Positions 1 to 33,935 of a DNA stretch of 64,000 bases are shown piece after piece; within the stretch, counting starts at the first letter, position 1; each line of letters starts with the position of its first letter. The position numbers were made by a program, and so were the translations under genes. This stretch comes from Anaerolineales bacterium (GTDB lineage: Bacteria > Chloroflexota > Anaerolineae > Anaerolineales > UBA4823): positions 124,001 to 188,000 of the forward strand of contig PQAL01000019.1 of NCBI GenBank assembly GCA_003105035.1. Reading direction: 5' to 3'. The notes below the pieces were generated by a model that worked only from the letters and a program-made list of their open reading frames with translations, had not been told where the DNA came from and made no database searches.

Positions 1-1709
1 GGCACTGAGCTATTCTGCAGGATGCCGCGTACAGCCTGTGAGCTGGTGCGCGGCCTGGCTTGCAAGAGCAAAGCCACTGCACCTGCCACGTGAGGTGACG
101 ACATGGAAGTGCCGCTCATGGTGGTATATCCGCCTAATTCCAGCGGGTAGGTGGAGTAGATGTTTCCGCCTGGTGCACCGAGGTCTGGCTTAAGCGCTAA
201 ATCAGGTGAGAGGCCATAGGAACTGAAGGACGAGATCAATCCACCAGTTGGGCTGGGAAAGGAATCCATCTGGTCAGTCCAGGTAAGGGTTATGGGTGCA
301 GTTTGGGTATTCAGGAAATTACCATCTGCTTGAGAAATGCCCACGACCGGTGTAATCCCGTCAAGTGGTCCTCCAAGTGTGCCATTAAAGACACCAGGAG
401 CATTGTTAGAAATCAATACCGCCACGGCCCCGGCGTTGATTGCATTGGTAGCCTTTATGGCAAATGAGCATGTTCCTCGTACTGCATGGGCTACTTTCCC
501 TGTGAGTGATCCAGCTGGTAAAGCTGAGCATGCCAAGCCAACATTGACGATTTCACCTGTCCCAGCGGTAGGTGGATTGGGTGAAAATGTCATCGTGATG
601 TAACCAATTTTCCATCCATTTACCGTAAAGTATGGCAGCATCACATTGGTGTTATCGTAAGATGCTACCCCGATCACTTTATCACCCACACCGGGGGCAC
701 CGGCAGAATAGAGGCCGTTGGCACCATTGTTGCCGATGGACGCCACAACGACCATGCCCTTGTTAACCAGGCGATTGGCTGCCATAGCTGTTGGATATTG
801 CGGCCACTGGTAGGCTGAGCCGATGCTCATGTTGAGCACCTGCATGCCATCCGCAAGGGCTCTCTCCATGGCTGCAATCATTATGTCGGCAGTTGTGGAG
901 CCTTCACAGCCAAAGACACGGTAAGACCCGAACGTGACATCCGGAGCAACACCCTTCAAACCATTGGTTAGATCGTTGGCACCGATGATGCCCGCCACAT
1001 GAGTACCATGTCCATAACAGTCGTCTGGGTATAGATCAGGTGTTGGAACAGGATTATAGGATGGTGAGGTCGAATCGGCATTGAAGGCGTCCCCAACCAG
1101 GTCATAACCATAGGCAACACGGGCAGTTGGGAAAACAGTGCTGTTCGACCGAGCGACTCCGTCACCACCAAATGCCTGGTGATCGTAGTCAATACCGGTG
1201 TCCATCACTGCCACCTTGACCCCCATCCCGGTATAACCGAGCTCTGATTGGGCAACATCCGCGCCAATCATCGCCAAAGAGGTGAAGAGCTCAGGCTCTG
1301 ACGGTGTGGTTACCGGCATGGCAATGGTTTCCACAGGGTAGATGTTCTTCACGCCCGCCATACGGTTAAGCTTGCCTAGCTGGTCAGTTGTGATGGAAAT
1401 CGAGAAACCGTTGAACAGGGTGTCGAAAGCGTAGCGCTCGGTGTAGACCAGGCCTGCCTTTTTCGCATTCACCCGGAAAGCAGCTTTCTCAGCTTTAAGT
1501 GCAGCGAGATTGGTGCCATCCGCGGTGGGAGCGCTGGACAATTCGACAAACCACAATTGGGGTGTTTCGTCAACCATCTCTCCCGTTTCTGCTGAAGGAG
1601 GCGGGAATAATGGCTCGATCGGAACCACATCATCAGCAAAAACAGGCACGACGATCAGGCTTAATAAAAGTGTGACCACAAGCATGGAAAAAATGATTTT
1701 CTTAGACAC
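1..1709 (-). CDS. Secreted S8 subtilisin-like serine protease with PA domain (C-terminus cut by window edge)
   Basis: The frame is open from a GTG at 1709 to the window start, about 569 codons. The start has GGAGG at 1715-1719, five bases upstream, and encodes a basic-hydrophobic signal peptide ending near VFA-DD. The peptidase S8 triad is intact: Asp170 in MDTGID, His234 in GHGTHVAG and Ser535 in GTSMSSPH. An inhibitor-I9-like propeptide lies at about residues 45-115. A protease-associated domain is inserted between His and Ser, with the stretch GKVAHAVRGTCSFAIKA. This indicates an exported endopeptidase that matures by propeptide removal. It is divergent from the second subtilase at 2627. 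The C-terminal domains are outside the window. Confidence 0.93.
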   Translation of the reverse strand, partial: MSKKIIFSMLVVTLLLSLIVVPVFADDVVPIEPLFPPPSAETGEMVDETPQLWFVELSSAPTADGTNLAALKAEKAAFRVNAKKAGLVYTERYAFDTLFNGFSISITTDQLGKLNRMAGVKNIYPVETIAMPVTTPSEPELFTSLAMIGADVAQSELGYTGMGVKVAVMDTGIDYDHQAFGGDGVARSNSTVFPTARVAYGYDLVGDAFNADSTSPSYNPVPTPDLYPDDCYGHGTHVAGIIGANDLTNGLKGVAPDVTFGSYRVFGCEGSTTADIMIAAMERALADGMQVLNMSIGSAYQWPQYPTAMAANRLVNKGMVVVASIGNNGANGLYSAGAPGVGDKVIGVASYDNTNVMLPYFTVNGWKIGYITMTFSPNPPTAGTGEIVNVGLACSALPAGSLTGKVAHAVRGTCSFAIKATNAINAGAVAVLISNNAPGVFNGTLGGPLDGITPVVGISQADGNFLNTQTAPITLTWTDQMDSFPSPTGGLISSFSSYGLSPDLALKPDLGAPGGNIYSTYPLELGGYTTMSGTSMSSPHVAGAVALLLQARPRTSSQAVRGILQNSSV

Positions 1710-2086
1710 ATTATCCTCCGTTTGGTTTGGGTAAGATTTTGTCTTCCAGAAGACACAAGATCATTATCTTATGCAGTACCAATAAACCGTAACTTCACCT
1801 CCTCATATAACAACGGTCCCAATGCCCCCTTTTGTAAAGTTCCAAGAATCGAGTGAGACCTCTAGCTATTGGTATGTCCATCATCCTCCTTTCTGCTCAC
1901 CGAGCATATGCAGGCAGCAAGAAAAAGCTACAACAACATTGACCATACCTGGCCGGCTTCGCAATTGGCTCCCCAATAGGATGCTTCAATAATCTCTGCG
2001 ACCAGTCCCCTGTTGGATCATCGCCTACCAATGAGTTATATTTTCAATTCGTTAACTTAGTTACAGAGTAGATTGAACGCAAATCT
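1710..2086 (-). promoter_or_regulatory. Long 5' leader of the minus-strand subtilase
   Basis: About 370 nt separate the predicted transcription start from the GTG at 1709. On the minus strand it contains AGAAAGGAGG (1885-1894), a very strong match to the anti-Shine-Dalgarno, but more than 170 nt from the gene start. Two ATGs follow it immediately and open a 29-codon frame ending in TGA near 1797. The spacing (0 or 3 bases) is too short for normal initiation, so I do not call it a gene. The plus-strand leaders of this region carry the same misplaced strong SD. Confidence 0.4.
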
Positions 2087-2115
2087 ATTATAGCAAATGA
2101 TACTATCCATGTCTA
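2087..2115 (-). promoter_or_regulatory. Sigma-70-type promoter for the minus-strand subtilase
   Basis: Read on the minus strand, TAGACA (2110-2115) is separated by exactly 17 bases from TATAAT (2087-2092). The -35 matches TTGACA at five of six bases and the -10 is perfect. The only downstream gene is the protease starting at 1709. Confidence 0.7.
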
Positions 2116-2365
2116 TTATTTAGCTTTTGTCTATTTCTTTAGCACGGAGAGCTATTCACCATCAATGGTCTCAAAAAGAGACGGCAGGGGAATTGGTCGG
2201 TGTAATCACTTGGCTGTGGTGAAGCAAGCAAAAGCAGGTTCTTCACTCAGCTTGTTAAACCTTCCTGTTATCAAGATGGATAGAATTTTAATAATCAACT
2301 CGCAATATTAATTGCTATTCTGGCATAAATTTAGGGAAAGAATGGCAAAATCATGAAAAATCTAG

Positions 2366-2394
2366 TTGACTTGCTCAAAATAAGTTGCTATAAT
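2366..2394 (+). promoter_or_regulatory. Sigma-70 promoter, cassette copy A
   Basis: TTGACT (2366-2371), 17 bases, TATAAT (2389-2394). The same hexamers and spacing recur in copies B and C, which supports function by conservation. Confidence 0.85.
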
Positions 2395-2399
2395 CAGGT

Positions 2400-2626
2400 C
2401 ACGGTCTAAACAAAACGCAGTAGCACCGCCGAAGTGCAGATCTACAGGGAGATCAGCCATAATTGTTTGTTGCATTTAAAAGGATAGAAAGGAGGTGTCA
2501 GCCCACCAATCTACCTGGTCTAAAAGACCAGTAATATCCCCTATCTGGTCGTTGAACGCGAAATCCCAGGGGATGCGTTTTTAAAATATCACATATTCCG
2601 TACCGATCAATGAGAGGAGGACGTAC
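2400..2626 (+). promoter_or_regulatory. Structured 5' leader, cassette copy A
   Basis: Predicted untranslated leader of about 225 nt. Elements in order: GATCT/AGATC hairpin (2439-2454); AGAAAGGAGGTG (2486-2497), the exact complement of a 16S rRNA 3' end; GGTG/CACC hairpin (2494-2507) overlapping that SD; ATCCCC (2536-2541) pairing with GGGGAT (2569-2574); and CGTAC (2599-2603) pairing with GTACG (2623-2627), which places the true SD AGGAGG (2615-2620) in a loop and the GTG start at the stem foot. I know no named riboswitch that matches. The structural reading is inference from three related copies. Confidence 0.6.
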
Positions 2627-5605
2627 GTGAAACGATTATTATATCTAACCATAATAGTGGTGTTGTTAGCAGGCTTCCTGCCAGTAGCCAGCCTGGCTCA
2701 AGCCCCTCAATCCAAGGGAGGAAATCTTACTGAAAGCCCCAACGGGGTCTATATTGTCCAGATGCTGGACGAACCTGTGGTTGCTTATGAAGGCGGTATC
2801 CCTGGCCTGAAGGCCACTGCACCCAAGAACGGCGATAAGATCGACCCCTATAGCCCAACTGTGGTAGCCTATGACAATTATTTGAAAGGCAAGCATGACC
2901 AGGCCTTGGGAAAAGTGGGTGGTGGTAAGAAGCTATATAGCTATACCTACAGCTTCAATGGCTTTGCCGCCCAATTGAGCCTGGACCAGGCCAACAAGAT
3001 GACCTCCGTCGACGGCGTCAAGGTGGTGACCCCCGATGCGCTGCAAACGATGGATACCTCATCTACTTATAAATTCCTTGAATTGAATGCACCGGGTGGG
3101 TTGTGGGATCAACTTGGTGGAACAGCCGGTGCCGGTGAAGGCATGATCATTGGCATTATCGACTCGGGTATCTGGCCTGAGAGCCTGAGCTTCACCGACC
3201 GTGTCGACAGGAATGGCGACCCAGCTGCCAAGGGCAAGCTGGTTTACCAACAGATCCCCGGCTGGCACGGCAAGTGTACCCCCGGTGAGCAGTTCAACGC
3301 CTCCATGTGTAACCAGAAGCTGATCGGCGCCCAGTGGTTCAATGCCGGGTGGGGCGGTGATGCAGGTATCGATGCCCAACGCCCCTGGGAGTTCAACTCG
3401 GTGCGCGATTACAACGGCCACGGCAGCCACACTTCTTCTACTTCAGGTGGTAACTATGGAGTCTTAGCGACCGGTCCGACTGAAGCATTCGGCAAGATCA
3501 GCGGTATGGCACCCCGTGCCCGTATTGCCATGTACAAGGCCTTGTGGTCCACCGAGGATGCCTCCACAGCCAGCGGAAACACCTCCGATCTCGTGGCAGC
3601 CATTGACCAGGCGGTGGCGGATGGCGTGGATGTGATCAACTACTCGATCAGCGGTTCCCTCACCAACTTCCTGGATCCGGTAATGGTCGCTTACCTTTAT
3701 GCGGCGCGTGCCGGTGTGTTTGTCTCCTGCTCGGCTGGTAACAGTGGCCCCACCACCGCCACGGTTGCACACCCCGGCCCGTGGGTGACGACCGTTGCTG
3801 CCGGTACCCACAACCGTAGTGCGGTTGGCTCTGTGACTTTAGGTAATGGCTCGACCTACTATGGATCATCAGTATCTGTGGTCTCCGTTACAGCTCCTTT
3901 GATTGACTCAATCGCTGCCGGATTACCCGGTGCAGACCCGACACAAGTTGCGTTGTGCTATAGCTCGCTCGACGGTGGTAATGTGCTCGATCCTGCTAAA
4001 GTGGCCGGCAAGATTGTAGTCTGTGACCGGGGCGTGACCGCCCGGGTGAATAAGAGCCTGGCGGTGAAGGAAGCCGGTGGTGTCGGGATGATCCTATTGA
4101 ATCCTACTTCCGCCACACTAAATGCCGATTTCCACTCCGTTCCGACAGTGCATCTGCAAAACACAGACTACGCAGCTGTCCACGCTTATGCTGCCACCGC
4201 AGGTGCTACCGCAACCATCAATCCAGCGACTATCGAATATAACACCCCTGCTCCATATACCGCTTCCTTCTCGTCCCGTGGACCATTGCGCGCAGGTGGT
4301 GGTGACCTGCTCAAGCCGGATGTGATGGCTCCGGGCGTGGACATCCTCGCGGCAGTATCCCCAGCCAGTGGTGGCGGTTTGAATTTCAACCTGTATCAAG
4401 GCACGTCCATGTCAGCACCGCATGTGGCGGGCGTGGCGGCTCTGCTGATGCAGGCCCACCCCGACTGGACCGTAATGATGGTCAAGTCGGCCCTGATGAC
4501 CTCCGCGTATGACGTCCTGGATGGACCGAACACCAATCCGCTGGTGATTTTCCGCCAGGGTGCCGGTCACATCAAGCCCAACAGCGCGGTGAATCCCGGC
4601 CTGGTGTACAATGCCGGCTGGAATGACTGGCTGGCTTTCTTGTGCGGCACGACTACGGGTGTTGCCCCTGCTACTTGTAGTGCATTAGCTGGGCTGGGCT
4701 ACTCGCTGGATCCGAGCGACCTGAATGTGGCTTCCATTGCCATCGGCGACCTGGCAGGAGTACAGACGATCACCCGCAAGGTGACCAACGTCGGAACAAG
4801 CGCAGCCACCTACACTGCTTCCTACACTGGCATGGGCGGGTTCAATGTCGTGATCGCGCCTACATCGCTATCACTCAATCCGGGTCAGACGAAGTCATTC
4901 ACTGTGATCTTCACCCGCACCACGGCTGCATTGAATGCATACACTGGCGGACAGCTCACCTGGACAGATGGCACGCACAGCGTGCGCATCCCCATGGTAG
5001 TACAACCAGTCGCCCTAGCAGCGCCAGCACAGGTTTCTGGCAGCTACACAGTAGTCTTTGGATATAACGGAGATTTCACGGCAACTCCGCGCGGCCTGGT
5101 TCCGGCAACTACATTTACTGACTCAATCAGCACCGGCCAACAGCAATACTATCCCGTGACTGTGCCAGCTGGTAGCACCTATGCCCGCTTCTCGCTTTTC
5201 GATGCCAACGTCATCCCAGCCAGTGACCTTGACCTGGTTGTTTATCGCTGTGGTGATCCAACCTGTGCGACAGGAACACAAGTAGGCTCAAGTGGAGGTG
5301 GAACATCTGCAGAAGAAGTCAACCTGCTGAATCCCACAGCTGCTACCTACCTGGTGCTTGTCGATGGTTATGCCACGCCCAACAACCAGCCAGCCACCTT
5401 CACCCTGTTCACCTGGGTGCTGGGCACTGCTGATGAGGGTAACATGACGGTCACCGCACCCACAACTGCGGTCATTGGAACCACCGGCATGATCGACCTG
5501 ACCTTCAGCGGACTCGCAGCTGGGACCAAGTATCTGGGCAGTGTGGCTTACTCCGGTATCGCTGGCCTGCCAAACCCCACCATCGTGCGTGTGGACACAC
5601 CATAA
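2627..5605 (+). CDS. Secreted cucumisin-like S8 subtilase
   Basis: A 992-residue exported serine endopeptidase. It starts at GTG with AGGAGG six bases upstream. Layout: signal peptide 1-24; inhibitor I9 propeptide at about 40-140; catalytic domain with Asp179 in IIDSGIWPES (the hallmark of cucumisin-type subtilases), His265 in NGHGSHTSS and Ser594 in GTSMSAPH; a PA domain at about 430-530 between His and Ser (GKIVVCDRG); a fibronectin-III-like domain at about 690-790; and a C-terminal pre-peptidase-type beta domain. All catalytic residues are present. It follows cassette copy A and is closed by a strong terminator, so it is probably monocistronic. The probable role is digestion of extracellular protein. 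Confidence 0.95.
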   Translation: MKRLLYLTIIVVLLAGFLPVASLAQAPQSKGGNLTESPNGVYIVQMLDEPVVAYEGGIPGLKATAPKNGDKIDPYSPTVVAYDNYLKGKHDQALGKVGGGKKLYSYTYSFNGFAAQLSLDQANKMTSVDGVKVVTPDALQTMDTSSTYKFLELNAPGGLWDQLGGTAGAGEGMIIGIIDSGIWPESLSFTDRVDRNGDPAAKGKLVYQQIPGWHGKCTPGEQFNASMCNQKLIGAQWFNAGWGGDAGIDAQRPWEFNSVRDYNGHGSHTSSTSGGNYGVLATGPTEAFGKISGMAPRARIAMYKALWSTEDASTASGNTSDLVAAIDQAVADGVDVINYSISGSLTNFLDPVMVAYLYAARAGVFVSCSAGNSGPTTATVAHPGPWVTTVAAGTHNRSAVGSVTLGNGSTYYGSSVSVVSVTAPLIDSIAAGLPGADPTQVALCYSSLDGGNVLDPAKVAGKIVVCDRGVTARVNKSLAVKEAGGVGMILLNPTSATLNADFHSVPTVHLQNTDYAAVHAYAATAGATATINPATIEYNTPAPYTASFSSRGPLRAGGGDLLKPDVMAPGVDILAAVSPASGGGLNFNLYQGTSMSAPHVAGVAALLMQAHPDWTVMMVKSALMTSAYDVLDGPNTNPLVIFRQGAGHIKPNSAVNPGLVYNAGWNDWLAFLCGTTTGVAPATCSALAGLGYSLDPSDLNVASIAIGDLAGVQTITRKVTNVGTSAATYTASYTGMGGFNVVIAPTSLSLNPGQTKSFTVIFTRTTAALNAYTGGQLTWTDGTHSVRIPMVVQPVALAAPAQVSGSYTVVFGYNGDFTATPRGLVPATTFTDSISTGQQQYYPVTVPAGSTYARFSLFDANVIPASDLDLVVYRCGDPTCATGTQVGSSGGGTSAEEVNLLNPTAATYLVLVDGYATPNNQPATFTLFTWVLGTADEGNMTVTAPTTAVIGTTGMIDLTFSGLAAGTKYLGSVAYSGIAGLPNPTIVRVDTP

Positions 5606-5635
5606 CCAGCTTATCCACATTTTGTATTATCGATC

Positions 5636-5670
5636 ATCAGGTTGGCAGGCTTACCTGCCAACCTGATTTT
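5636..5670 (+). terminator. Intrinsic terminator after the subtilase
   Basis: A perfect 14-bp stem (5636-5649 with 5654-5667, core AGGTTGGCAGG/CCTGCCAACCT) with a CTTA loop, followed by a short T run. Confidence 0.9.
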
Positions 5671-5816
5671 CAATAACTGTCAGATTGAAGCACAATGAAG
5701 TTCGGTTATGTCCTGGGTGTTCTTCCTGGCGTATGCCGATTCATGATCATCAGGTTATAGGTGAGTATATCTCTGTTTTTTTTTGTGAAATGACGTTCTC
5801 GTAATTGGAGGTTAGG

Positions 5817-6434
5817 TTGAAAGGAATTGTCCTGGCTTTATTCGTGATATTTCTGCTCCTGGGCGCTGGCGTAGCCGCGGCTTCATCTACAACCGTGTAT
5901 TTACCGATTGCATCCAATATGAATACGCCAACACCCACGCCAAACCTCAGCCCGATATTATTCCCCAATGGGGACTTTGAACAAGGTGCGACGATATGGG
6001 TAGAATCTTCTACTCAGGGATACGAATTGATCCTCGAACAATATCCCTACGGGCTTCCTGCAACCATTCCACCCTACAATGGTCGCTGGGTGGCATGGTT
6101 AGGATTTGTTGATATCGAATACTCGACGATCAGCCAGCAAATCCTGGTTCCATATAACCACCCATATCTGTCATACTGGATATGGATCGATTCTGAAGAT
6201 CCTAATTGTGGTATTGCATACGACCTCGCCCAGGTGACAGTTAATGGTGCAACAGTAGATGAATATTACCTGTGTACGGCTACCAAAACAAATGGCTGGG
6301 TACAAAGAGTGGTAGATTTGCATGCCTATCGAGGAGAAACAGTTGAGATAAAATTTGGGGGATTTACGGATCTATATTATCAAAGCGGCTTGTTCATCGA
6401 TCACGTTACCTTCCAGGTTAGCGAGGATGGGTAA
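5817..6434 (+). CDS. Small secreted protein with beta-sandwich-like domain
   Basis: About 205 residues. I place the start at TTG 5817, because GGAGG at 5807-5811 is five bases upstream; a longer frame from TTG 5805 would overlap the SD. It has a signal peptide (LKGIVLALFVIFLLLGAG), then the motif VYLPIASN and a Thr-Pro linker often seen in secreted Chloroflexota proteins. A domain starting FPNGDFEQG and ending near IDHVTFQV resembles carbohydrate-binding or MAM-type jelly rolls. No catalytic residues are recognised. It follows a terminator and has no obvious partner. The exact function is unknown. Confidence 0.75.
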   Translation: MKGIVLALFVIFLLLGAGVAAASSTTVYLPIASNMNTPTPTPNLSPILFPNGDFEQGATIWVESSTQGYELILEQYPYGLPATIPPYNGRWVAWLGFVDIEYSTISQQILVPYNHPYLSYWIWIDSEDPNCGIAYDLAQVTVNGATVDEYYLCTATKTNGWVQRVVDLHAYRGETVEIKFGGFTDLYYQSGLFIDHVTFQVSEDG

Positions 6435-6688
6435 TCGCTTTCGGATAAGTGAACTTGATAATCTCGCTAGATCCGCGGGGGCGGAAAATTGAGGCTTGAA
6501 GTACATGGTCTTCAAACAACCCGCTATTCTTTGTATATTCTTAATTCTCGAATTTCAGAAATTCTAACTGGGTATACTGGTAATATTCTTCTCATTCGCC
6601 TGTAAAATTATGCGAATATCAGGCCTTGCTTAAGATCTGCTCACTGCATGAATAAACCCAAATCAACTAGTTTCACGGGAGGAAAATA

Positions 6689-7357
6689 ATGGAATATTAC
6701 GCCACCCCACAAGACATCCATACCAAAGGCAAGCAATGGCTCGACCACATCGCTCCCTTCAATACCCATAAAATGGAGCTCAATGCGGCCAGATCTGCCT
6801 TACTGGTGATCGACATGCAAAACTTCTTCCTTGACCCGGCTTCGCCCAGCTTCACCTGTGGTGGGCAGGCAATCCTGCCCAACCTCAAAACGCTAATCCA
6901 GGCTTACCGGAAAGCCAACCTCCCGGTCATCTACACCCGCCATGTACACCACCCCGACCTGTTGGATGCCGGCATCATGCGTTGGTGGTGGCCGGGCATG
7001 TGCCGTGAGGGTTACCCGGAAAGCGAGGTCCATCCAGACCTGGCACCACAGCCCGGTGAAAAGCAGGTGCTTAAGCACCGCTATTCGTCCTTCTACAACA
7101 CCGACCTGGAGACCATCCTGCGCGTGATGAAGGTGGAAGATTTGGTAATCAGCGGCATCATGACCAATATGTGCTGCGAATCGACTGCCCGAGATGCCTA
7201 TTTTCGCGATTACCGGGTCTTCTTCCTGGCTGACGGGACGGGCAGCATCACTGAGGAAATGCACCTGGCCAGCCTGCTCAACCTGGCTTTCGGTTTCGCC
7301 TGGGTGACCAGCGTGGATAGCCTTCTTGCCCAGTTAAAAGTCACCGCAACCGGTTAG
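6689..7357 (+). CDS. Isochorismatase-family cysteine hydrolase
   Basis: A 222-residue cytoplasmic hydrolase. The start ATG has GGGAGG upstream. The family triad is visible: Asp42 in LLVIDMQNFF, a Lys at 129 in VLKHRYSSF, and Cys162 in TNMCCESTARDA. Members cleave amide or vinyl-ether bonds (nicotinamide, N-carbamoyl compounds, biuret, isochorismate). The sequence does not tell the substrate, and there are no metabolic neighbours to guide it. It lies alone between two secreted-protein units. Confidence 0.9.
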   Translation: MEYYATPQDIHTKGKQWLDHIAPFNTHKMELNAARSALLVIDMQNFFLDPASPSFTCGGQAILPNLKTLIQAYRKANLPVIYTRHVHHPDLLDAGIMRWWWPGMCREGYPESEVHPDLAPQPGEKQVLKHRYSSFYNTDLETILRVMKVEDLVISGIMTNMCCESTARDAYFRDYRVFFLADGTGSITEEMHLASLLNLAFGFAWVTSVDSLLAQLKVTATG

Positions 7358-7534
7358 CTGCCTGGAATATTTTTGAAATATGCTCTGGGCAAGAATTTTA
7401 CAACTTTGGTCGAGCAAACATCGCATAGATTCCTCCGTAATCAAGAATGATAGAATCAAATCGCTGGGTATGCAAATATTATTGCTAATTTATTTATTTT
7501 AAGGTATAAGCTGGCAAAATCAGGCGGAATCGAA

Positions 7535-7563
7535 TTGACTTGCTCAAAAATAGTTGCTATAAT
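7535..7563 (+). promoter_or_regulatory. Sigma-70 promoter, cassette copy B
   Basis: TTGACT (7535-7540), 17 bases, TATAAT (7558-7563), with hexamers and spacing identical to copy A. Confidence 0.85.
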
Positions 7564-7569
7564 CTAATC

Positions 7570-7783
7570 ACGGTCTAAACGAGACGCAATCGCTTGCAGA
7601 AGGATAGATCTACAGGGAGATCAGTCAGAAGTTTTTTTCCTTTAATTGGTCAGAAAGGAGGTGTTTTCACACCGATCGATCTGGTCTTGCATATCAATAA
7701 TATCCCCAATCTAATCATGGCATGCTGATTCTCAGGGGATGCCAAAAAAATATTGCGTACCAATCAATGAGAGGAGGACGTAC
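7570..7783 (+). promoter_or_regulatory. Structured 5' leader, cassette copy B
   Basis: It has the same order of elements as copy A: AGATCTACAGGGAGATCA hairpin; AGAAAGGAGGTG (7652-7663); hairpin GGTGT-TTTC-ACACC (7660-7673); ATCCCC (7702-7707) with GGGGAT (7735-7740); and CGTAC/GTACG flanking the true SD AGGAGG. The fifth pair of the SD hairpin is T-A here and C-G in copy C, a compensatory change. Confidence 0.6.
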
Positions 7784-10700
7784 GTGAAAAAGCTATTTTA
7801 TTTAACCATGGTGTTAGTGTTATTACTGGGGGTCGTGCCTGTCACCGCGCAAAGCCAGGCAGAGATAGATGGTACACTGGCTTCCAAAGCGATCTATTTT
7901 GCTGCTGATGGCATGCGCCCCGACCTGATGGAGCGCTATGCCGCAGAAGGCAGCCTGCCCACCTATGCGGATTTGATCGCCAAAGGTGTGATAGGGGAGA
8001 ACGGTCTGGTGCAAGCCTTCCCACCCAATACAGGCGTGGGCTGGTATACCCTGGCGACAGGTGCCTACCCTGGTGAGGCTGGCTCAACCAACAACACTTT
8101 CTTCCGCACAGGCGATAGTTTCAACAACCGGACTGCGGCGTTTTCTGCGGGCGTGCTCCAGGCGGATACCATTGCCGAATCAGCCGAGCGGGCCGGCAAG
8201 AAAGTCGTCTCCATGGAGTGGTCAGGCGGATCGCGCACAATGACCCCCGTCCAGGGTCCTGTGGTCGACTACCGCAATTTCTACTCCAACCGCGGCTTGT
8301 GGACCAATTATGATGTCCTCGGTCAGCCAGCGGGTGCCAACGCCTTCGGCGTGCAATACCAGCGTTTTGACCTGGCTGATGCCAGTGGATGGATGAATGT
8401 ACCCGCCACTTACAGCACCGCCAAACAAGGAACTTTTGATGTTGGTTCCTACACCAGCGGTGGTAGCCCGGTGATCACCAATGACCAGTATGATTTCTAT
8501 GTGTATGACTCAACCAACGATGCTACGATCAACTATGACCATGTGCTGATTGTCCCTAATGCTAGCCTGAAAGATGGTAGCACGGCTGTCGCCAATCTGA
8601 TGGCCGATGAGTGGGCGGATGTCAAGGTCGTACTCGCAAACCCAGCTGGCAAGAGTGCGGGGTTTTATGTCAAAGCCCAGATGTTTGTGCCTGACCTGAG
8701 CCAGTTTGCCATATTTTTCAGCTCTGTGGCTCGTTCGGTTGCCACTTGCAACGGTTGTGGATACATAGGTGACTTTGAGGACGATCTGAACCGGTGGTTC
8801 CCCAGCTCAACTGCAGCAGACTACGCCATCTTCGAGTCAGGCCTGGTGGATGCTGATACCTATATCGAGCAGGGCCTGATGTGGAAGAATGCCCACTGGG
8901 CTTACCTGAATTTTATCCTCGGCACAGATCCGGTTCAAACAGTTAGCGGTGGTAGCGTGCCCGGAATGGGGTACCCAGCCGATTTGCTGATGATGGGCAA
9001 CCCGGCCACGGATGAGTTTTCCCACATGTTCTTTGGATTAACTCAATCCCAGGTTAACGGCATCACCAACCCATACTACAATAACTATTATTCATACGGC
9101 GAGCTCATCACCCCTGATATCGCAGATGGCTTCTTGAGAGAAGCGTATATGGAAGCCGATGCTACCCTGGCTTTAGGGAAGCAGCTGATGGGCGGCTCGC
9201 CAACCATCTTTGCCACTTCCGACCACGGCTTTGGCTCCCAATGGCTGGCCGTCAACGCCGGTAAGGTGCTAGCTGATGCTGGCATTCAAAAGAATGCAGA
9301 TGGGAGCGAAGTGTTCAGCAACTGCCGGGCAGCCACTGGTGCCACCGCGATAAATTTGGCCAAGGCTTGCTGGGCAGGCGGAACGGCACAGATCTACGTG
9401 AATACTTCATTACCCGCCGGTACAACTTACGAACAGGTTCGCACAGCGGTGGTCAATGCCTTCCAGAATTTGACCGACCCGGCTAACCCGGGTGCCCAGG
9501 TGGTGCTGAGGATTATGATGAAGGAAGAGCTACGCGACGTTGACGGCTCTGACTCCCTGCACCCCAATCGCAGTGGTGATGTCGTCGTGGTGCTCAATCC
9601 ACCCTACCAGTTCGATGCGGCCACTTTTGGTCAGACAATCGCCTTCTCGCAGTTCTTCGGACAGCACGGCTACCTGCCTGAGACGGTCAGCCTGGCAGAT
9701 GGCGTCAACATGCATGCCACCTTCGTGGCTGCTGGGCCTGGCATTCGTCATCAAGGTCCGGTGGCAGGGATACGTGCGGTTGACCTGGCCCCCACACTGT
9801 CATTCTTGTTGAATGTCCCTGGCCCGGCCAATGCACGTGGCAGAATCCTCTACAACCTGCTCAAATCTCCCGGGCAGTACAAGGAAGCCACCATCCTTTA
9901 CATCAGTGACTTCCATGGTCAGCTTACCCCACTCTCCCAGGCTGCTGACACGTTTAGCAGTCCAACATACAGTATCGGTGGCGCAGCTTACCTGAAGCCC
10001 TGGTTCGATACCTATCGTGCAGAAGTGCCAACCACCAGTAACTACAGCGTGCTCACCCTGTCAGGAGGAGACCTGGTAGGTGCTACTCCTCCCATCTCCA
10101 ACTTCTTCGGCGACACACCTACCATGGAAATCGCCAATATGATGGGCCTGACCGCCGACACGCTGGGCAACCATAACTTTGACCGGGGTTCTGATTACTT
10201 ACGGAATGTGCTTATTCCACTGGCAGACTTCCCTTACCTGGCCTCCAACGTGGTCTATCAGACCACTGGCAAGCTGCCGCCAGAGTGGATGGCATCGAAG
10301 ATCTTCAACTTTAACGGCTTTAAGCTGGGCGTCATTGGATACACCCTGCCGGAGCTACCAACGTTGATCTTCCCGGGTTACCTTGACCCATTCATGGTCA
10401 CCGATCCTGTTGCGGCGATCAATGCTGAAGCAGCCAGTCTACGCTCGAAGGGCAAAGTCAATGCCGTCATCGCTGTCGGCCATATGGGTGGGGATGGTAC
10501 AAGTATCTTCAACCCCACGGGTGCGCTGGTGAATCTAGCTGATAATCTGACTGGGGTGAACGCCGTATTTGGTGGTCATACCCACTCGGAGTACATTACC
10601 TACCGCCCAGATGGTAAGCTGGTGACTGAAGCCCCCAATGGTGGCTTACGCTTCAACCGCATTCGCATCACCGTTGATACCAATACGAAACAGGTGATCT

Positions 10701-11503
10701 ATATGACTGCCGATTACCACAAGCCCTGGAATATCGGCGTCACCCCCAACCCTGCCATCCAGGCGTATATCGACGAGCTGAATGCTGAGCTTGCACCGAT
10801 CATGAGCACAGTGATTGGAAACTCCACCCGATATATTCCTCGAGCAGATGCGTGCGGTCGAGCAGATGGTCGATTGTGTGAATCGCTCATCGGCGATGTG
10901 ACCGCTGATGCTTTGCGCCTGACATACAACGTCGATTTCGCAATCACCAACTCGGGCGGCTTGCGGGCTGACCTGACCTGCCCCACGACGGACAACCCAA
11001 GTGATTTTTGCCCACCTTATACTCCACCACCGTACCCCATTACGCGTGGTTCTGTGCTGGGTGTGCTGCCGTTTGGTAACGTGGTCTTCACGGTAAGCAT
11101 CAGCGGGGCAGAGCTCAAAACCATGCTGGAGAACGGTGTCTCTGCAATGCCAGCAGCCAATGGCAAGTTCCCCCAGGTGTCTGGCCTGTGCTTCACCTAC
11201 GATATCTCTGCAGCCGTCGGTAGCCGGGTGTTAAGTGCCGTCCGGCAGGCAGCAAACGGTTCCTGCACAGGGGCCCCAGTCGACCTTACCGCTGCCTCCA
11301 CCTACACGATCGCTGAAAACGACTTCATGGCGACCGGTGGAGATGGGTACCCGAACTTTTATGCTCGCGGTACTACCCAGAATATCATGGACCAGGTGTT
11401 GGCCGACTATATCACAGTCAATACCCCGATCAGCCCTGCGATCCAGGGACGCGTTGCTTGCACGACCAGTGGAGCAACGGCTTGCCCTGTGGTCACACCA
11501 TAA
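7784..11503 (+). CDS. Secreted fusion: type I phosphodiesterase/nucleotide pyrophosphatase plus 5'-nucleotidase
   Basis: A 1239-residue exported protein. I use GTG 7784, not the in-frame ATG at 7739, because AGGAGG lies six bases upstream of the GTG and copy A aligns exactly there. Signal peptide 1-23. The N-terminal alkaline-phosphatase-superfamily module (about 30-690) has the metal site Asp42 (AADGMRP), probable nucleophile Thr83 (PNTGVGW), TDEFSH, TSDHGFG and His644 (NMHATF, typical of NPP enzymes). The C-terminal UshA-like module (about 700-1225) has Asp709/His711 (ISDFHGQ), [14 protein letters not shown], His932 (GGHTHS), then the 5'-nucleotidase C domain with NSGGLRADL and [11 protein letters not shown]. 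Together it could hydrolyse phosphodiesters or nucleotides to nucleosides and phosphate outside the cell. A terminator follows. Confidence 0.92.
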
Positions 11504-11524
11504 AGTAAGCACGTCTTGTTCGCC

Positions 11525-11562
11525 AAAAGGTCAGGAGGGTCGTTATCCTCCTGACCTTTTTT
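11525..11562 (+). terminator. Intrinsic terminator after the fusion phosphoesterase
   Basis: AAAAGGTCAGGAGG (11525-11538) pairs with CCTCCTGACCTTTT (11547-11560), with an 8-base loop and a run of six T. Confidence 0.93.
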
Positions 11563-11782
11563 CCATATATCCCACCACCTGTAGCGTTGCGATAGCAAGC
11601 TGCCTGGATTATTCTCTGTAATACAACTTCGCTCCGGTTAAGCATATTACAACGAGTGTCGAATATTCACATCGGGATCCACTCGAAATCAAGAATGATA
11701 GAAACGAATCGCATGGCGAACAATATTTATTGCATTTACGAATATTTTAAGGTAAAAACAGGCGGAATCAAGTGAAAATAAA

Positions 11783-11811
11783 TTGACGTGCTCAAAAATT
11801 GTTGCTATAAT
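11783..11811 (+). promoter_or_regulatory. Sigma-70 promoter, cassette copy C
   Basis: TTGACG (11783-11788), 17 bases, TATAAT (11806-11811). It is presumably the promoter of the double 5'-nucleotidase at 12208. Confidence 0.82.
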
Positions 11812-11817
11812 CTAATC

Positions 11818-12043
11818 ACGGTCTAATCTAAACGCAGATAGCTCGCAGAGAAATAGATCTACAGGGAGATCAGCCATAATTGTTCGTTGCGTTTAATGGG
11901 TCAGAAAGGAGGTGCCGTCGCACCGATTAACCCGGTCATAGACATCAGGTATATCCCCTATCTATTCGTGGAATACTAATTCTCAGGGGATGGCGCTTTG
12001 AAATACCATGATTTGCGTACGAATCAATGAGAGGAGGAAGTAC
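11818..12043 (+). promoter_or_regulatory. Structured 5' leader, cassette copy C
   Basis: AGATCTACAGGGAGATCA hairpin; AGAAAGGAGGTG (11903-11914); hairpin GGTGC-CGTC-GCACC (11911-11924); ATCCCC (11953-11958) with GGGGAT (11986-11991); and CGTAC/GTACG around AGGAGG. It is conserved although the start codon behind it is lost, which suggests that the leader acts on transcription or RNA stability as well as on initiation. Confidence 0.58.
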
Positions 12044-12171
12044 GTAAAGTGATATTTCAATCTCACCTTGGTGTGGTGCTATTTAGTGTTGTACTTTCAC
12101 CGAGGTGGATTCTAGCAAGCTTGGAGGTGCATCAACTCGATCTTTTTTCACCAGGTCACTTGAAAACGTGA
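12044..12171 (+). pseudogene. Remnant signal-peptide coding start (or 40-codon leader ORF)
   Basis: At the position of the cassette start codon the sequence reads GTA AAG TGA, a lost start followed by a stop. The next bases still resemble the signal-peptide region of copy B in a shifted frame. A GTG at 12049 opens a 40-codon hydrophobic frame ending in TGA at 12169-12171, 36 nt before the real gene. Its spacing from AGGAGG (about 11 bases) is long. Decay is the simplest reading; a short translated leader peptide is possible. Confidence 0.45.
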
Positions 12172-12207
12172 CATACTTTTGATTCTAATATTTTTGAGGA
12201 GGAATGC

Positions 12208-15200
12208 ATGTTTAGAAATAAAAAATCACGAAGCGTAATTGCAATGCTGATCGCCATAGCGTGTGTTGCGGCAGTGCTGGCGATCGCTCTGCCCAAGGTG
12301 AATGCCACCGCCGCTCCGGCTGTACCGGTGACCTTCAGCATCTTGCACCACAACGATTTCCACGGCCAGCTCGAGCCATCTGGCAGCAACCCTGGCCTGG
12401 CGCGCCTGGCCAACACGGTCAATGGAGTCCGTACAGCCGTCGGTGCGGGTAACGTCTTACTCCTGGACGCTGGTGACGAGATGCAGGGTAGCCTGCTCTC
12501 GAACATCTGGCAGGGTGAGCCGGTCATTGCGGCTTACGACCTAATGGGTTATGACGCTGCCACCTTCGGCAACCACGAGTTTGACTGGGGTCAAGATGTG
12601 CTGACTGCCCGCACTGGCGAAGCAACCTACCCCTACGTCTCAGCCAATATCGTGGTCAACGACACCGGCAACTGCAACACAGCTGGTTGGACCAGCCCGG
12701 ATTTCGCTACTCCCTATACGATCTTGACAGTCGGGGATCCTGTGCAGGTCAAGGTTGGGGTGATCGGTGTCACCACGCAGGAAACACCCTACATCACCAT
12801 TGCCGAAGCCACTGACGGATTGTGTTTCAAGGATCCAAAAGACTCAATCCTTCATTATTACGACGAATTGAATGCCCAGGTAGATGTAATTGTGGTCCTG
12901 AGCCACCTCGGTTTCAATGATGGGGGTTACGGTTACGGTTTCACAGTTTACGGTGATAAGACCCTGGCGCAAAAGCTGATCGATGCCGGGAAGCCGGTTG
13001 ACCTGATCATCGGTGGTCACAGCCATACTGACTTGGCTACAGCGACCGTAGTAGGACCAACTACAGTGGCTCAAGCACATTACAATGGTCGCAAGCTTGG
13101 CCGAGCAGATATCACTGTTCAACCCAGTGGTGCAGTCAGCATTGTCTGGACAAGGCTTACGATCGGCACGAGTGATCCACAAGATTCCGCTGTCGCAGCC
13201 CTCATCGCCACATATGCCACCGACCCCGACTACCTGGCGCTGATTAACCAGCCTATCGGTTATGCCCAAACGGACCTGCTACGCGATTACAACGGCGATA
13301 ACATGATGGGCGATTTCGTCGACGATGCGATCTATGAATACCTTAATAATGACGCTGAGCCAACCAACGATGTTGACCTGTTCCTCAATAACGCAGGTGG
13401 CATCCGCATCGACTGGTGCGATAAGTGGGATGCTGGTTTGGGGCAATGGATTTGGAGCAGCGCTGCAGCAGATTGCCAGCCAGGGCTCTGGGCGCATGAC
13501 CCACTGCTGCTGACCTATGGCCAGATGTTCCAGATCTTGCCCTTCGGTAATGCCACCATTGTTGGTGACATGACCGGTGCCCAGATCCTGGATCTGATCA
13601 ATCAGAGTGCCACCCTGTTCAAGGGTGCCATCCAACCCTCCGGCATACGCTATTCATTCTACCGCTATTCCGATGCTCTGCCTGGTCCACAGCCATGGGC
13701 ATGGGGCGGATATGACGTCGAGGTGTTCGATAAGGTGGCTGACGCTTGGGTGCCCCTAGACCTGGAAAAGACTTACCGGGTGGGCACCAATGAGTTCCTG
13801 GCTCCTGCCGGGCAGGATGGCTATGTCCAGTTCAAGTATATGACCAACATTTCCTACTGGGGCGATATGCTCAACGCAGTTAATGCCCATGTGGCTGCCA
13901 CCTATGGCACACCTGAGACTGCCTACAAGGGTCCAGATGGTGACGGCACACTTGACGGACGCATCACCCGGGATGGAACTGATGCAGGTGGAAGCATCGT
14001 ACCCATCACAGTCTTGCATCACAACGATTCACACGGCAACCTGGTCAAGGGATCATATGTTGGTTATAGCCAGCTGGCCGCCAAGATTACCCAGGAACGC
14101 GCCCATAACCCCACCCGCACACTGTTGCTGAATGCAGGTGACAGCTTCCAGGGCGACTCGATGATGTATTACTTCAAGTCAGCCGCACTGGGCTATGCTG
14201 CTGATAACACGCCGCTCGATCCGGCATTGCAGATCAACCCACTCATGGCTGCCTTCAACCTGATGAACTATGATGCCATGACGCTGGGCAACCATGAGTT
14301 CAACTTCGGCTCACAGATCTTCACCAGCTCAATGTCACAAGCTACCTTCCCAGTCTTACAGGCTAACCTGGAAGATACCGGTGCATATGGTATCGCTCAG
14401 GTTCCAGTACAAGACTATGTCTTGAAGTCGGTTGGTCCAGAGGGCATCAATGTGGCAATCCTGGGCATCGGTAATCACCGGGTACCCAATTATGAGCTGC
14501 CCAGTAACATCCCTGGTCTGACATTCACCGACCCGATGGCGAAAGCTCAAGAGCTATCTGACGCGTTGCGGGCGACCAATGATGTAGTGCTGGCGCTCAC
14601 CCATATCGGCTTCACTGAAAACCCGGGCAGCGTGGAGATCGACAACAACGTTGACACTTACATGGCAGCCAATGTTAGCGGGTTGGACATGATCGTAGGC
14701 GGGCACAGCCACACGAACCCTGTTTATGGCTTTGGACCCTACAAGTTCCTCCCAACCTTTGTGGCAGGCCCCAATAACACCCCGGTGCTGATTAACCAGG
14801 CCTACCGTTACAACAACACCCTGGGCGAGAACGTGATTGGCCTACGCCCCGATGGAAACGGTGGTTATGAAGTCGTCAGCCGTGCTGGGCGCTACATCTC
14901 AATCGCTTTGACAGATCAAGAAGATCCGGCTATTCAGGCGATTGCCGCGCCGTACGTAGCGCTGTTGAGTGAATACAACAATACGATCATCGGCACGACC
15001 ACCCAACCCATTGACACTACCAATGCTTACATCGCCGAAACCAATGCAGCTAACTTACAGGCGGATGCCGCAGTCCATGAATTGGAAGTGCTCAATAGTA
15101 TCCCTGTCGACTTCCATTTATCCGGTGCGATGACAAGGCCAAGCGCACAGGCAAATTGGATCATGTTTGACGACGCCACACCTGTTAATCCGGTACCAAT

Positions 15201-16269
15201 GAAGGTCAGCGACATGTTCACCCTCATGCCCTATGAGAACTCGCTGGTGGTCTTGGAAATGAACGGTCCACAGCTGAAGGCGGTGCTGGAGCGCGCCTAC
15301 CGCAACTACTATTACTACAATTATGTACCCGGGTATGGCGGTTACTCCTACTACACCACCTGTATGGTCGACATTAATTCCGGTGGCCAGATTACATACA
15401 ACGACATTTTTGACCAGGCATATGATCCTAATAAAAGCTATGTCGTGTCACTGGAATTTGACGGACACCAGGTAGACTTTAACGACGCGGATACTTACTA
15501 CCGTGTCTCGACAGTCAATTACCTGGCAGCAGGCTCGTGCAACTTCAACAATGGCGGTGTCAGTTTGTGGCCGCTGGACCAGATCGTCAATGACACACAG
15601 TTCTATGTACGCGATGCGGTCATCCACTATGTCCAGGCGGAAGAGACTGTCAATCCCTTGGTTGAAGGCCGGCTGCAATTCATCTACGATACCCAGGCTC
15701 CAGTAATCACGATCACAGCCCCCACCGCGACGACTTACCTGCACACTGCCATGCTAACCCTCGACTTTAGTGCAGAAGATGTAGGTCCTGCGGGTCTTAA
15801 GGATGTCTGGGCCGACCTCGATGGCGTACCCGTGACCGATGGTCAGGTAATCGACCTGCTCACATTGGCATTAGGTGACCACACCCTGACTGTGTACGCG
15901 ATGGACAACGCCTACAACCAGTCAAGCGCCTCGGTAACCTTCACAATCACCGCCACGATCGGCAGCCTGAAGGAAACCCTGACTCGCTTCTACCTTGAGG
16001 GAAAAATCGACAATCTCGGTCTCTACAACAGTTTGTGGGTAAAACTAACCCAGGCCGAGAAAGCATACGAGAAAGGAAACTACCGTATAGTTGGAAACGT
16101 GCTGAATGCCTTCATCAATGAAGTAATGGCACAACGTGGCCAGCACATCACAATGGACGCTGCCGATCTGTTGATTGCCGACGCAATGTGGGTCATCAAT
16201 CACTTGTCGGGCGGAAGCACCATCCTGCCCGTCCTCCCAAGAGATCTCACTAAGTCAAGTGGTCGATAA
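12208..16269 (+). CDS. Secreted tandem double 5'-nucleotidase with Ig-like and FIMAH domains
   Basis: 1353 residues. ATG 12208 has GAGGAGG upstream. Signal peptide 1-33. Module 1 (about 45-600) is a complete UshA/NutA-like enzyme: Asp50/His52 (HHNDFHGQ), DAGDEMQGS, GNHEFDWG, GGHSHTD, then NNAGGIRIDW and NEFLAPAGQDGY in the substrate-binding domain. Module 2 (about 600-1160) keeps the metal motifs (Asp607/His609, NAGDSFQGD, GNHEFNFG, GGHSHTN), but its C domain reads LSGAMTRPS where NxGGxR is expected and lacks the NDFxxxGGDGY loop. Then come an Ig-like domain (about 1167-1245) and a FIMAH domain (about 1251-1340). It is driven by cassette copy C and is probably monocistronic. Likely role: extracellular nucleotide dephosphorylation. 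Confidence 0.93.
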   Translation: MFRNKKSRSVIAMLIAIACVAAVLAIALPKVNATAAPAVPVTFSILHHNDFHGQLEPSGSNPGLARLANTVNGVRTAVGAGNVLLLDAGDEMQGSLLSNIWQGEPVIAAYDLMGYDAATFGNHEFDWGQDVLTARTGEATYPYVSANIVVNDTGNCNTAGWTSPDFATPYTILTVGDPVQVKVGVIGVTTQETPYITIAEATDGLCFKDPKDSILHYYDELNAQVDVIVVLSHLGFNDGGYGYGFTVYGDKTLAQKLIDAGKPVDLIIGGHSHTDLATATVVGPTTVAQAHYNGRKLGRADITVQPSGAVSIVWTRLTIGTSDPQDSAVAALIATYATDPDYLALINQPIGYAQTDLLRDYNGDNMMGDFVDDAIYEYLNNDAEPTNDVDLFLNNAGGIRIDWCDKWDAGLGQWIWSSAAADCQPGLWAHDPLLLTYGQMFQILPFGNATIVGDMTGAQILDLINQSATLFKGAIQPSGIRYSFYRYSDALPGPQPWAWGGYDVEVFDKVADAWVPLDLEKTYRVGTNEFLAPAGQDGYVQFKYMTNISYWGDMLNAVNAHVAATYGTPETAYKGPDGDGTLDGRITRDGTDAGGSIVPITVLHHNDSHGNLVKGSYVGYSQLAAKITQERAHNPTRTLLLNAGDSFQGDSMMYYFKSAALGYAADNTPLDPALQINPLMAAFNLMNYDAMTLGNHEFNFGSQIFTSSMSQATFPVLQANLEDTGAYGIAQVPVQDYVLKSVGPEGINVAILGIGNHRVPNYELPSNIPGLTFTDPMAKAQELSDALRATNDVVLALTHIGFTENPGSVEIDNNVDTYMAANVSGLDMIVGGHSHTNPVYGFGPYKFLPTFVAGPNNTPVLINQAYRYNNTLGENVIGLRPDGNGGYEVVSRAGRYISIALTDQEDPAIQAIAAPYVALLSEYNNTIIGTTTQPIDTTNAYIAETNAANLQADAAVHELEVLNSIPVDFHLSGAMTRPSAQANWIMFDDATPVNPVPMKVSDMFTLMPYENSLVVLEMNGPQLKAVLERAYRNYYYYNYVPGYGGYSYYTTCMVDINSGGQITYNDIFDQAYDPNKSYVVSLEFDGHQVDFNDADTYYRVSTVNYLAAGSCNFNNGGVSLWPLDQIVNDTQFYVRDAVIHYVQAEETVNPLVEGRLQFIYDTQAPVITITAPTATTYLHTAMLTLDFSAEDVGPAGLKDVWADLDGVPVTDGQVIDLLTLALGDHTLTVYAMDNAYNQSSASVTFTITATIGSLKETLTRFYLEGKIDNLGLYNSLWVKLTQAEKAYEKGNYRIVGNVLNAFINEVMAQRGQHITMDAADLLIADAMWVINHLSGGSTILPVLPRDLTKSSGR

Positions 16270-33657: not shown

Positions 33658-33686
33658 GGTCGTCTCCATCCCAGTGTTATTCCACT

Positions 33687-33720: not shown

Positions 33721-33786
33721 TGAAATGCACATCGTTAATTAACGGCATTGTTCACAGTGCCTTCAGGCGAGGTAATGGTGAACCCA

Positions 33787-33912: not shown

Positions 33913-33935
33913 GGATAATATTCGATTGTGAAGGT

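Follow-up and report, generated by a model that had tools for sequence, protein, structure and literature searches.

Why should three neighbouring genes for different secreted enzymes be preceded by the same promoter and the same long leader? This question is raised by a window of 64,000 nucleotides (nt; the whole stretch of DNA analysed here) from an Anaerolineales bacterium (assembly GCA_003105035.1, contig PQAL01000019.1, positions 124,001 to 188,000), in which three direct-repeat copies, all on the plus strand, lie at approximately 2271–2700 (A), 7434–7860 (B) and 11684–12067 (C). We consider it reasonably probable (roughly 0.6) that these copies represent a duplicated export-expression cassette containing a non-initiating 30S docking site, similar to the STAB-SD of cry3A, that stabilises the mRNAs of exported proteins. 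The candidate site, AAAGGAGGTG, is invariant in A, B and C and constitutes a full-length Shine–Dalgarno (SD) sequence located 120–129 nt before the GTG starts of genes A and B. We refer to it as the distal SD. The features of the three copies are as follows (promoter matches are out of 12 positions; domains are from Pfam; leaders are based on alignment and conservation).

2366–2394 (+), copy A promoter, TTGACT-17 nt-TATAAT with TG before the −10 box, 11 of 12
2400–2626 (+), copy A leader, with transcription probably starting near 2401
2439–2454 (+), copy A invariant hairpin GATCT-ACAGGG-AGATC
2488–2497 (+), copy A distal, putatively non-initiating SD AAAGGAGGTG, 129 nt before the GTG
2494–2507 (+), copy A small predicted hairpin GGTG/CACC, overlapping the end of the distal SD
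2536–2574 (+), copy A predicted hairpin ATCCCCT/AGGGGAT
2614–2620 (+), copy A ordinary ribosome-binding site (RBS) GAGGAGG, in the loop of CGTAC/GTACG
2627–5605 (+), gene A, secreted subtilase (S8, PA, fn3) with GTG start and the shared signal peptide
7535–7563 (+), copy B promoter, TTGACT-17 nt-TATAAT, 11 of 12
7569–7783 (+), copy B leader
7607–7622 (+), copy B invariant hairpin GATCT-ACAGGG-AGATC
7654–7663 (+), copy B distal SD AAAGGAGGTG, 120 nt before the GTG
7660–7673 (+), copy B predicted hairpin GGTGT/ACACC
7784–11503 (+), gene B, secreted fusion of type I phosphodiesterase, metallophosphoesterase and 5′-nucleotidase (Phosphodiest, Metallophos, 5_nucleotid_C) with the shared signal peptide
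11783–11811 (+), copy C promoter, TTGACG-17 nt-TATAAT, 11 of 12
11817–12043 (+), copy C leader
11856–11871 (+), copy C invariant hairpin GATCT-ACAGGG-AGATC
11905–11914 (+), copy C first distal SD AAAGGAGGTG, 129 nt before the dead start and 293 nt before ATG 12208
11911–11924 (+), copy C predicted hairpin GGTGC/GCACC
12044–12130 (+), copy C decayed start (GTA) and signal-peptide remnant
12123–12129 (+), gene C second distal SD GGAGGTG, 78 nt before the true start
12208–16269 (+), gene C, exported double 5′-nucleotidase-type protein with a FIMAH domain, ATG start and its own signal peptide

A direct-repeat search of the window returned an A/C repeat of 213 nt (76% identical), an A/B repeat of 93 nt (77% identical) spanning the start codon and signal peptide, and repeats of 111 and 94 nt present in three copies (72–83% identical to the reference copy); overall, the cassettes diverged by about a quarter. 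In the alignment, similarity begins approximately 95–100 nt 5′ of the −35 box and, between A and B, ends after the signal peptide. The diverged repeats with common promoter and leader blocks, and the near-perfect sigma-70 promoter of each copy, were found where the first-pass annotation had placed them. These promoters were the three best plus-strand matches in the interval 1700–12400, in which one minus-strand match also reached 11 and 17 matches were found versus 11.5 expected. Each leader extends for approximately 225 nt to the start, or former start, codon. Leader identity (159/215, 167/227 and 169/215) was greater than that past the start (47/76, 39/72 and 37/72), and invariant columns fell into runs (19, 16, 12, 11 and shorter) that clustered more than shuffled columns (leader, P ~ 2.5e−4; longest run taken alone, P = 0.009). 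The sequence GATCTACAGGGAGATCAG occurred exactly three times in the 64 kb, with no further occurrence at up to three mismatches (0.02 expected).

The similarity through the signal peptide that had been described for two copies was upheld for A and B. It requires amendment for C, which kept the promoter and leader together with a decayed sequence trace of the signal peptide: the start codon has become GTA and the reading frame is broken. Gene C instead begins 164 nt past this dead start, at ATG 12208, with its own RBS and signal peptide. A 40-amino-acid GTG open reading frame (ORF) also runs across the decayed stretch (12049–12171). The mature proteins behind A and B, a subtilase and a phosphoesterase fusion by Pfam, are indeed unrelated, and this arrangement of promoter, leader and signal peptide fits the proposal that an expression-secretion module was copied onto new enzymes. 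As the cassette illustrates, such a unit appears to be reusable on unrelated enzymes. A search of the organism's own genome (4.45-Mb assembly, 43 contigs, 97% complete) returned these three copies at one locus and on one strand, with the next match at E = 1.1. A dispersed mobile repeat, for which copies throughout the genome would be expected, was rejected on these grounds, and the three-copy unit as a whole appears to be a local triplication or duplication.

The distal SD was predicted to pair strongly with the 3′ end of 16S rRNA: −16.4 (A), −15.8 (B), and −15.6 and −16.3 (the two sites of C) kcal/mol, compared to −12.0 kcal/mol for the ordinary RBS of A, all calculated with the general bacterial 16S tail rather than that of this genome. 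For Anaerolineae, PMC10783764 lists CCUCCUUU. No start codon occurs at a spacing of 4–12 nt after the distal SD in A, B or C. In each copy the site runs into a predicted GGTG/CACC-type hairpin of 4–5 bp (−4.7, −5.7 and −7.9 kcal/mol in A, B and C), in which B and C differ by one compensatory change and which is weaker than the SD–16S pairing (−15.6 to −16.4 kcal/mol). The leaders therefore have the anatomy of a STAB-SD, namely an SD-like sequence in the 5′ leader, complementary to the 16S 3′ end, away from the real RBS and with no start codon at a working spacing, and the site appears to behave as a non-initiating SD. All three copies also contain a six-codon ORF with the RBS inside it (MRGGRT at 2610–2630, MRGGRT at 7767–7787 and MRGGST at 12027–12047), whose TGA overlaps the GTG start of the gene in A and B. 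A leader-peptide attenuator was considered and rejected: MRGGRT/MRGGST is not preceded by an SD in any copy, and the frames opened by the GTG within the distal SD are unequal (29, 17 and 9 codons).

To what extent does the site occur beyond this locus? The pattern AAAGGAGGTGN{3,8}CACC, covering the distal SD and its hairpin, was found at 28 places in 23 of 101 genomes. Sixteen of these were outside long ORFs, three being A, B and C. Of the other 13, read by eye, 11 preceded a gene for a lipoprotein with an evident lipobox (L028–L030 being one orthologous gene in three genomes), one preceded a membrane-type protein and one had a masked gene start. In one case (L034, near 1501, minus strand), the distal AAAGGAGGTG stands behind an apparent cobalamin riboswitch (by eye) and before a lipoprotein gene, so distal SDs may sit behind riboswitches. 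Because this set had been selected by pattern, a second set was assembled independently of the motif. Solute-binding-protein (SBP) genes were taken from a ranked list of SBP_bac_1 matches: 30 loci (one per genome) plus 60 further rows almost in order, five being skipped. One region was too short, leaving 89 upstreams, of which 77 with a signal-peptide start were usable. Aminotransferases (PF00155; 70 places, 69 with a start) served as the control and subtilases (PF00082; 70 places, 62 with a start) were included.

The five commonest 7-mers between −200 and −35 of the 77 SBP genes were AAGGAGG (30 genes), AAAGGAG (27), GGAGGTG (25), AGGAGGT (24) and GAAAGGA (22), all pieces of GAAAGGAGGTG; the sixth occurred in only nine genes. 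The number of SBP genes with GGAGGTG (25/77) was far greater than for its reversal (2), its reverse complement (1) or 41 permutations (mean 0.88, maximum 7), and significantly greater (P = 1.2e−5) than the number of aminotransferase genes (3/69; reversed, 2). Subtilases had 10/62 (reversed, 0). Likewise, AAGGAGGTG preceded 19/77 SBP genes versus 0/69 aminotransferase genes, and any of AAGGAGG, GGAGGTG or GAAAGGAG preceded 44/77 SBP, 4/69 aminotransferase and 11/62 subtilase genes (reversed, 4, 4 and 0). These upstreams were not copies of one another, as 75/77 shared fewer than three 14-mers. The sites were also confined in position, ending 66–125 nt (25 SBP genes) or 60–98 nt (10 subtilase genes) before the start in a search from −35 to −200, and strong 16S pairing (ΔG ≤ −11) peaked between −70 and −110, where two 20-nt bins contained 19 and 18 of the 77 SBP genes compared to 1 and 2 of the 69 aminotransferases. 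Anywhere between −35 and −190, such pairing was present in 44/77 SBP, 12/69 aminotransferase and 21/62 subtilase genes.

Start codons were avoided behind these sites. One occurred 4–12 nt past GGAGG in only 1/35 sites (SBP and subtilase), versus 35.4% of background windows (P = 4.5e−6), and ATG in 0/35 versus 12% (P = 0.011). The ordinary sites of the same 77 SBP genes (−22 to −1) differed, with GGAGGTG in none and AGGAG in 62. Since PMC10783764 gives the Anaerolineae SD as AAAGGAGG, the distal SD is longer on its 3′ side. Of the 44 SBP genes with a distal SD, four had a promoter-like match no more than 150 nt 5′ of that site (0.5 expected) and none had one between it and the start (0.8 expected). 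The 25 SBP genes with GGAGGTG were distributed over 18 genomes and four families of the order (own family 20/59; others 3/5, 1/4 and 1/1; five further families 0/8). The distal-SD class thus appears to span the organism's own family and several others, and these counts make the numbers outside the own family small. CACC followed GGAGGTG in just 1/25 of these unbiased SBP sites, and the hairpin pattern and its reversal were equally frequent (28 each). The CACC hairpin therefore does not belong to the general element, and a general SD–CACC hairpin was rejected. One side observation concerns the orthologue of gene B in a related genome (G040; L053, approximately 5442–5450, minus strand), which has AAGGAGGTG 119 nt before its ATG; by eye, a GTG directly behind it begins a reading frame with a stop codon overlapping the ATG, which could be a coupled upstream ORF.

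A comparable bias was found within the organism's own genome. The 10-mer AAAGGAGGTG occurred at 19 places (reversed, 13). Those upstream and outside genes included A, B, C and two more subtilases (L060 and L061). Two others were more than 150 nt before a lipoprotein gene (L057) and an exported-type ORF (L056), outside the usual range, and the remainder were ordinary RBSs or inside genes. Among the subtilase genes, for which eight of nine S8 matches were listed, five of the eight had a distal SD: gene A (129 nt before the start), L307 (88 nt), L308 (113 nt), L310 (100 nt) and L207 (GGAGGTG, 86 nt), the last being the divergent minus-strand subtilase of the window (3–1709). It was absent from L284, L309 and L311. 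Forty stretches of 20 kb plus the window were also sampled, in which 295 script-called genes had at least 130 nt of non-coding DNA upstream. AAGGAGG occurred between −55 and −135 of 6/51 signal-peptide, 0/214 cytosolic and 0/30 membrane genes (reversed, 1, 1 and 0), and the contrast remained when A, B and C were removed (4/48 signal-peptide versus 0/244 other genes, P = 6.6e−4). In this genome too, judging from its sequence, the distal SD favours exported proteins. The first-pass annotation had also suggested a shared RNA-level regulator of the secretome; this agrees in part with what was found for the AAAGGAGGTG block, an instance of a distal SD enriched before exported-protein genes that the annotation had not picked out, and fails for the leader as a whole, which in the genomes searched was found at its own locus only.

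How might such a site act? The DNA itself shows the repeats, the motif and where it lies, how it is enriched in front of exported-protein genes and how start codons are avoided behind it; a stabilised mRNA would follow by analogy with cry3A of Bacillus thuringiensis (Agaisse and Lereclus 1996). According to PMC4113751, the STAB-SD of cry3A is an SD-like sequence near −129 that can pair with 16S rRNA, does not initiate and, with 30S bound, blocks RNase J1. In our preferred reading, an ancestral 5′ cassette (strong sigma-70 promoter, leader of approximately 225 nt and signal peptide) would have been copied before three exported enzymes and then diverged, with the original signal peptide of copy C dying and a later one taking over. 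The AAAGGAGGTG of the leader would be one instance of a distal SD located 60–135 nt before many exported-protein genes of this order, mainly those of solute-binding lipoproteins. The stretches containing it would be transcribed, and a 30S subunit would dock there via the 16S 3′ end without initiating. The docked subunit may then block 5′-to-3′ decay, as for the cry3A STAB-SD, and exported-protein mRNAs would consequently be long-lived. The GGTG/CACC hairpin of A, B and C may tune the docking.

The likeness to cry3A comprises a leader SD that can pair with the 16S 3′ end, does not appear to initiate and lies approximately 130 nt ahead of the start codon, which in cry3A is that of a highly made protein. 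For cry3A, an effect on the mRNA has been demonstrated and the site marks the 5′ end of the major transcript. Here, in contrast, the effect is suggested by sequence likeness, the site recurs before many exported-protein genes across the order with an extended core, GGAGGTG, and A, B and C carry the hairpin behind it. Published work includes STAB-SD-like sequences in other Gram-positive genes, where they may be widespread (PMC4113751), a Stab-SD marked in intergenic regions of exported Bacillus cereus proteins (PMC4877379) and protection of downstream mRNA by a strong SD with 30S or ribosome bound, even without a start codon (PMC3997798, PMC7509114). Several of the protective leader SDs (ermC, aprE, gsiB, hbs and others) are translation-initiating sites, unlike the separate upstream site here. 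The c-di-GMP-I and c-di-GMP-II riboswitches occupy subtilase leaders of relatives, and leaders A, B and C score as neither. In the slpA/slpB and sapA surface proteins, a promoter, leader and signal peptide are common to different proteins and serve switching between alternatives. Here, three separate enzymes stand behind diverged copies. Among the titles and openings of abstracts that our literature searches listed, none reported distal SDs in Chloroflexota or before SBP genes, which is a weak negative.

We tentatively extend this reading to a possible lineage-wide one, in which the whole order would mark exported-protein mRNAs with a second, non-initiating SD (GAAAGGAGGTG, 60–135 nt before the start) as a 30S docking site stabilising or localising secretome mRNAs, the three leaders being its duplicated, portable form, joined to a promoter and a signal peptide. 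If such sites were linked throughout the lineage to genes for exported proteins and lipoproteins, with start codons avoided behind them, the idea that ribosome docking stabilises mRNA could be tested by comparison and by reporter assay, and the long SBP leaders that automated annotation passes over would be accounted for.

Several observations weigh against a docking site that stabilises exported-protein mRNAs. Subtilases carried the motif less often than SBP genes (10/62; P = 0.04 for their excess over aminotransferases), and others of them carry c-di-GMP-I riboswitches instead of it. In the own-genome sample, GGAGGTG was not significant without A, B and C (2/48 versus 1/244, P = 0.07), and 16S pairing of ≤ −11 between −55 and −135 gave a modest contrast (10/51, 16/214 and 1/30 signal-peptide, cytosolic and membrane genes, with A, B and C included). 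The best distal pairing exceeded that of the ordinary site in 54/77 SBP, 45/69 aminotransferase and 45/62 subtilase genes and thus did not discriminate. Start-codon avoidance was weaker for the broader motifs (3/30 after AAGGAGG and 3/20 after GAAAGGAG). The reversed form of the hairpin pattern also occurred at 28 places in the 101 genomes, and the GGTG/CACC hairpin would compete with docking. Predicted pairing hides part of the SD. Furthermore, transcription of the distal-SD stretches is argued from promoters (A, B, C, the locus L017 described below and 4/44 SBP genes), signal peptides and starts were called by rules of our own, and the aminotransferase control is imperfect because such genes may more often be inside operons.

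Could the leader as a whole be an RNA family? BLAST against the 101 genomes returned the own genome and one chance match (L011), and a pattern scan of the named GTDB genomes, from which own-genome records may be excluded, returned one stretch (L012) in an archaeal metagenome-assembled genome; both lie in coding DNA and were set aside. The first-pass annotation had called for a covariance-model search for homologues and covarying pairs. Across 400 sampled genomes of the order, a model of the first leader half gave, besides the own genome, three weak matches (E = 3.5e−4 to 2e−3 per genome, with about one expected by chance over 400), and a model of the second half found the own genome only. On reading the sequence, L016 and L018 lacked the layout and were taken as chance. 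L017 (G010), which matched through AATTGGTCAGACAAAGGAGGTGAGATCGCACCGATC, was kept as plausible as it has a promoter and AAAGGAGGTGAGATCGCACC followed 81 nt on by an SBP_bac_5 lipoprotein gene, although the second-half model finds nothing there and about one such first-half match is expected by chance. In both G040 and G031, the orthologue of gene B lacked the leader. No Rfam family matched the leaders at gathering threshold and none of relevance did so at E up to 10, in agreement with the earlier statement that no named RNA family fits. In the named helices, 1/10 pairs was compensatory, a count reached by 169/500 shuffles, although covariation is hardly testable with three sequences. The RNAalifold consensus had 4/50 pairs changing on both sides and an unfavourable covariation term (+1.12), and the GATCT helix is invariant and therefore uninformative on structure. 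As the three leaders also fold into different minimum-energy structures with ordinary folding-energy z-scores (−1.44, −0.64 and −0.56), a structured RNA was rejected; homologues with covarying pairs, as a new family would have, were not found in the 101 and 400 genomes with these three sequences. The first-pass annotation had held that homologues at this locus only, with no covariation, would reduce the leader to a simple local duplication, and on that measure it is one, because it is locus-only and its covariation does not exceed shuffles. The part of the leader that is shared more widely appears to be the distal SD and not a structured RNA family.

The main rival to a stabilising site is a standby or loading role, in which the 30S subunit slides or relays from the distal SD to the ordinary RBS, raising translation and not mRNA life. 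Such sites have been described in E. coli (PMC3936740 and PMC7708055). The anatomy would be the same, a strong SD without a start codon 60–135 nt upstream, and the ordinary RBS of the leaders lies within the loop of a small predicted hairpin. We nevertheless regard this role as unlikely, as known standby sites are mainly unpaired stretches rather than full-length SDs and the ordinary sites look strong themselves (AGGAG at −22 to −1 in 62/77 SBP genes). Plain local duplication, with the blocks being undiverged parts of an ordinary promoter and leader, would agree with three copies on one strand at one locus, with the lack of any Rfam match or covariation beyond shuffles and with the usual folding energy. 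It is quite unlikely given that the invariant runs cluster beyond chance, that the promoter and leader of copy C outlived its dead signal peptide and that one block turns up upstream of unrelated exported-protein genes in other genera.

A new ligand-binding riboswitch or protein-binding RNA regulating the three enzymes through GATCT-ACAGGG-AGATC and ATCCCCT/AGGGGAT is suggested by the invariant hairpin, by a CACGGTCTAAAC block that, by eye, looks like the 3′ terminus of a c-di-GMP-I aptamer, by c-di-GMP-I or c-di-GMP-I-GGC matches in 8/28 scanned S8 loci (6/20 plus 2/8; one of those scanned is from the own genome and has no match) and by a sub-threshold c-di-GMP-II match at the divergent subtilase. 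No convincing homologue was found elsewhere, the GATCT helix is invariant and Rfam gave no relevant match at E up to 10, all of which render it improbable. A c-di-GMP-I relic was rejected, as no match appeared even when the scanned stretch began at the CACGGTCTAAAC block. We also consider it very improbable that AAAGGAGGTG serves as the RBS from which a short upstream ORF is translated. The sequence matches an SD perfectly, an ATG lies near the site in one locus (L075) and the G040 orthologue has its GTG-initiated frame, but start codons are avoided (1/35, with no ATG, versus 35% and 12% background). Copies A, B and C have none at a spacing of 4–12 nt, and the GTG contained in the SD opens frames of 29, 17 and 9 codons. 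Hardest to credit are CsrA-type repressor sites, with GGA motifs in ACAGGGAG and AGGAGG. ACAGGGA does fit the CsrA consensus ACANGGA, but the own genome (97% complete) had no CsrA match, whereas 10 of the 21 genomes in that search did.

Riboswitches also occur around the locus and in other subtilase leaders. The c-di-GMP-I or c-di-GMP-I-GGC matches in the scanned S8 loci were at L202, L206, L208, L209, L210, L213, L216 and L218, with L221 and L223 outside the scan; six further S8 loci of the own genome had no c-di-GMP-I (0/6), and 14/62 S8 leaders had c-di-GMP-I-type aptamer ends by eye. The c-di-GMP-II match of the window (1942–2037, minus strand; 27.5 bits, E = 0.0019, gathering threshold 53.5) is upstream of the subtilase at 3–1709 (minus strand). 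A second in the own genome (C33:26090; 39.1 bits, also sub-threshold) precedes a multicopper-oxidase gene (Cu-oxidase_3). These are possibly variant aptamers, and weak matches to the family were also found in 3/14 control genomes. Finally, a cobalamin riboswitch (33775–33925, minus strand; 52.6 bits) precedes an exported-type protein (32062–33669, minus strand) with a weak squalene-hopene-cyclase-type Pfam match.

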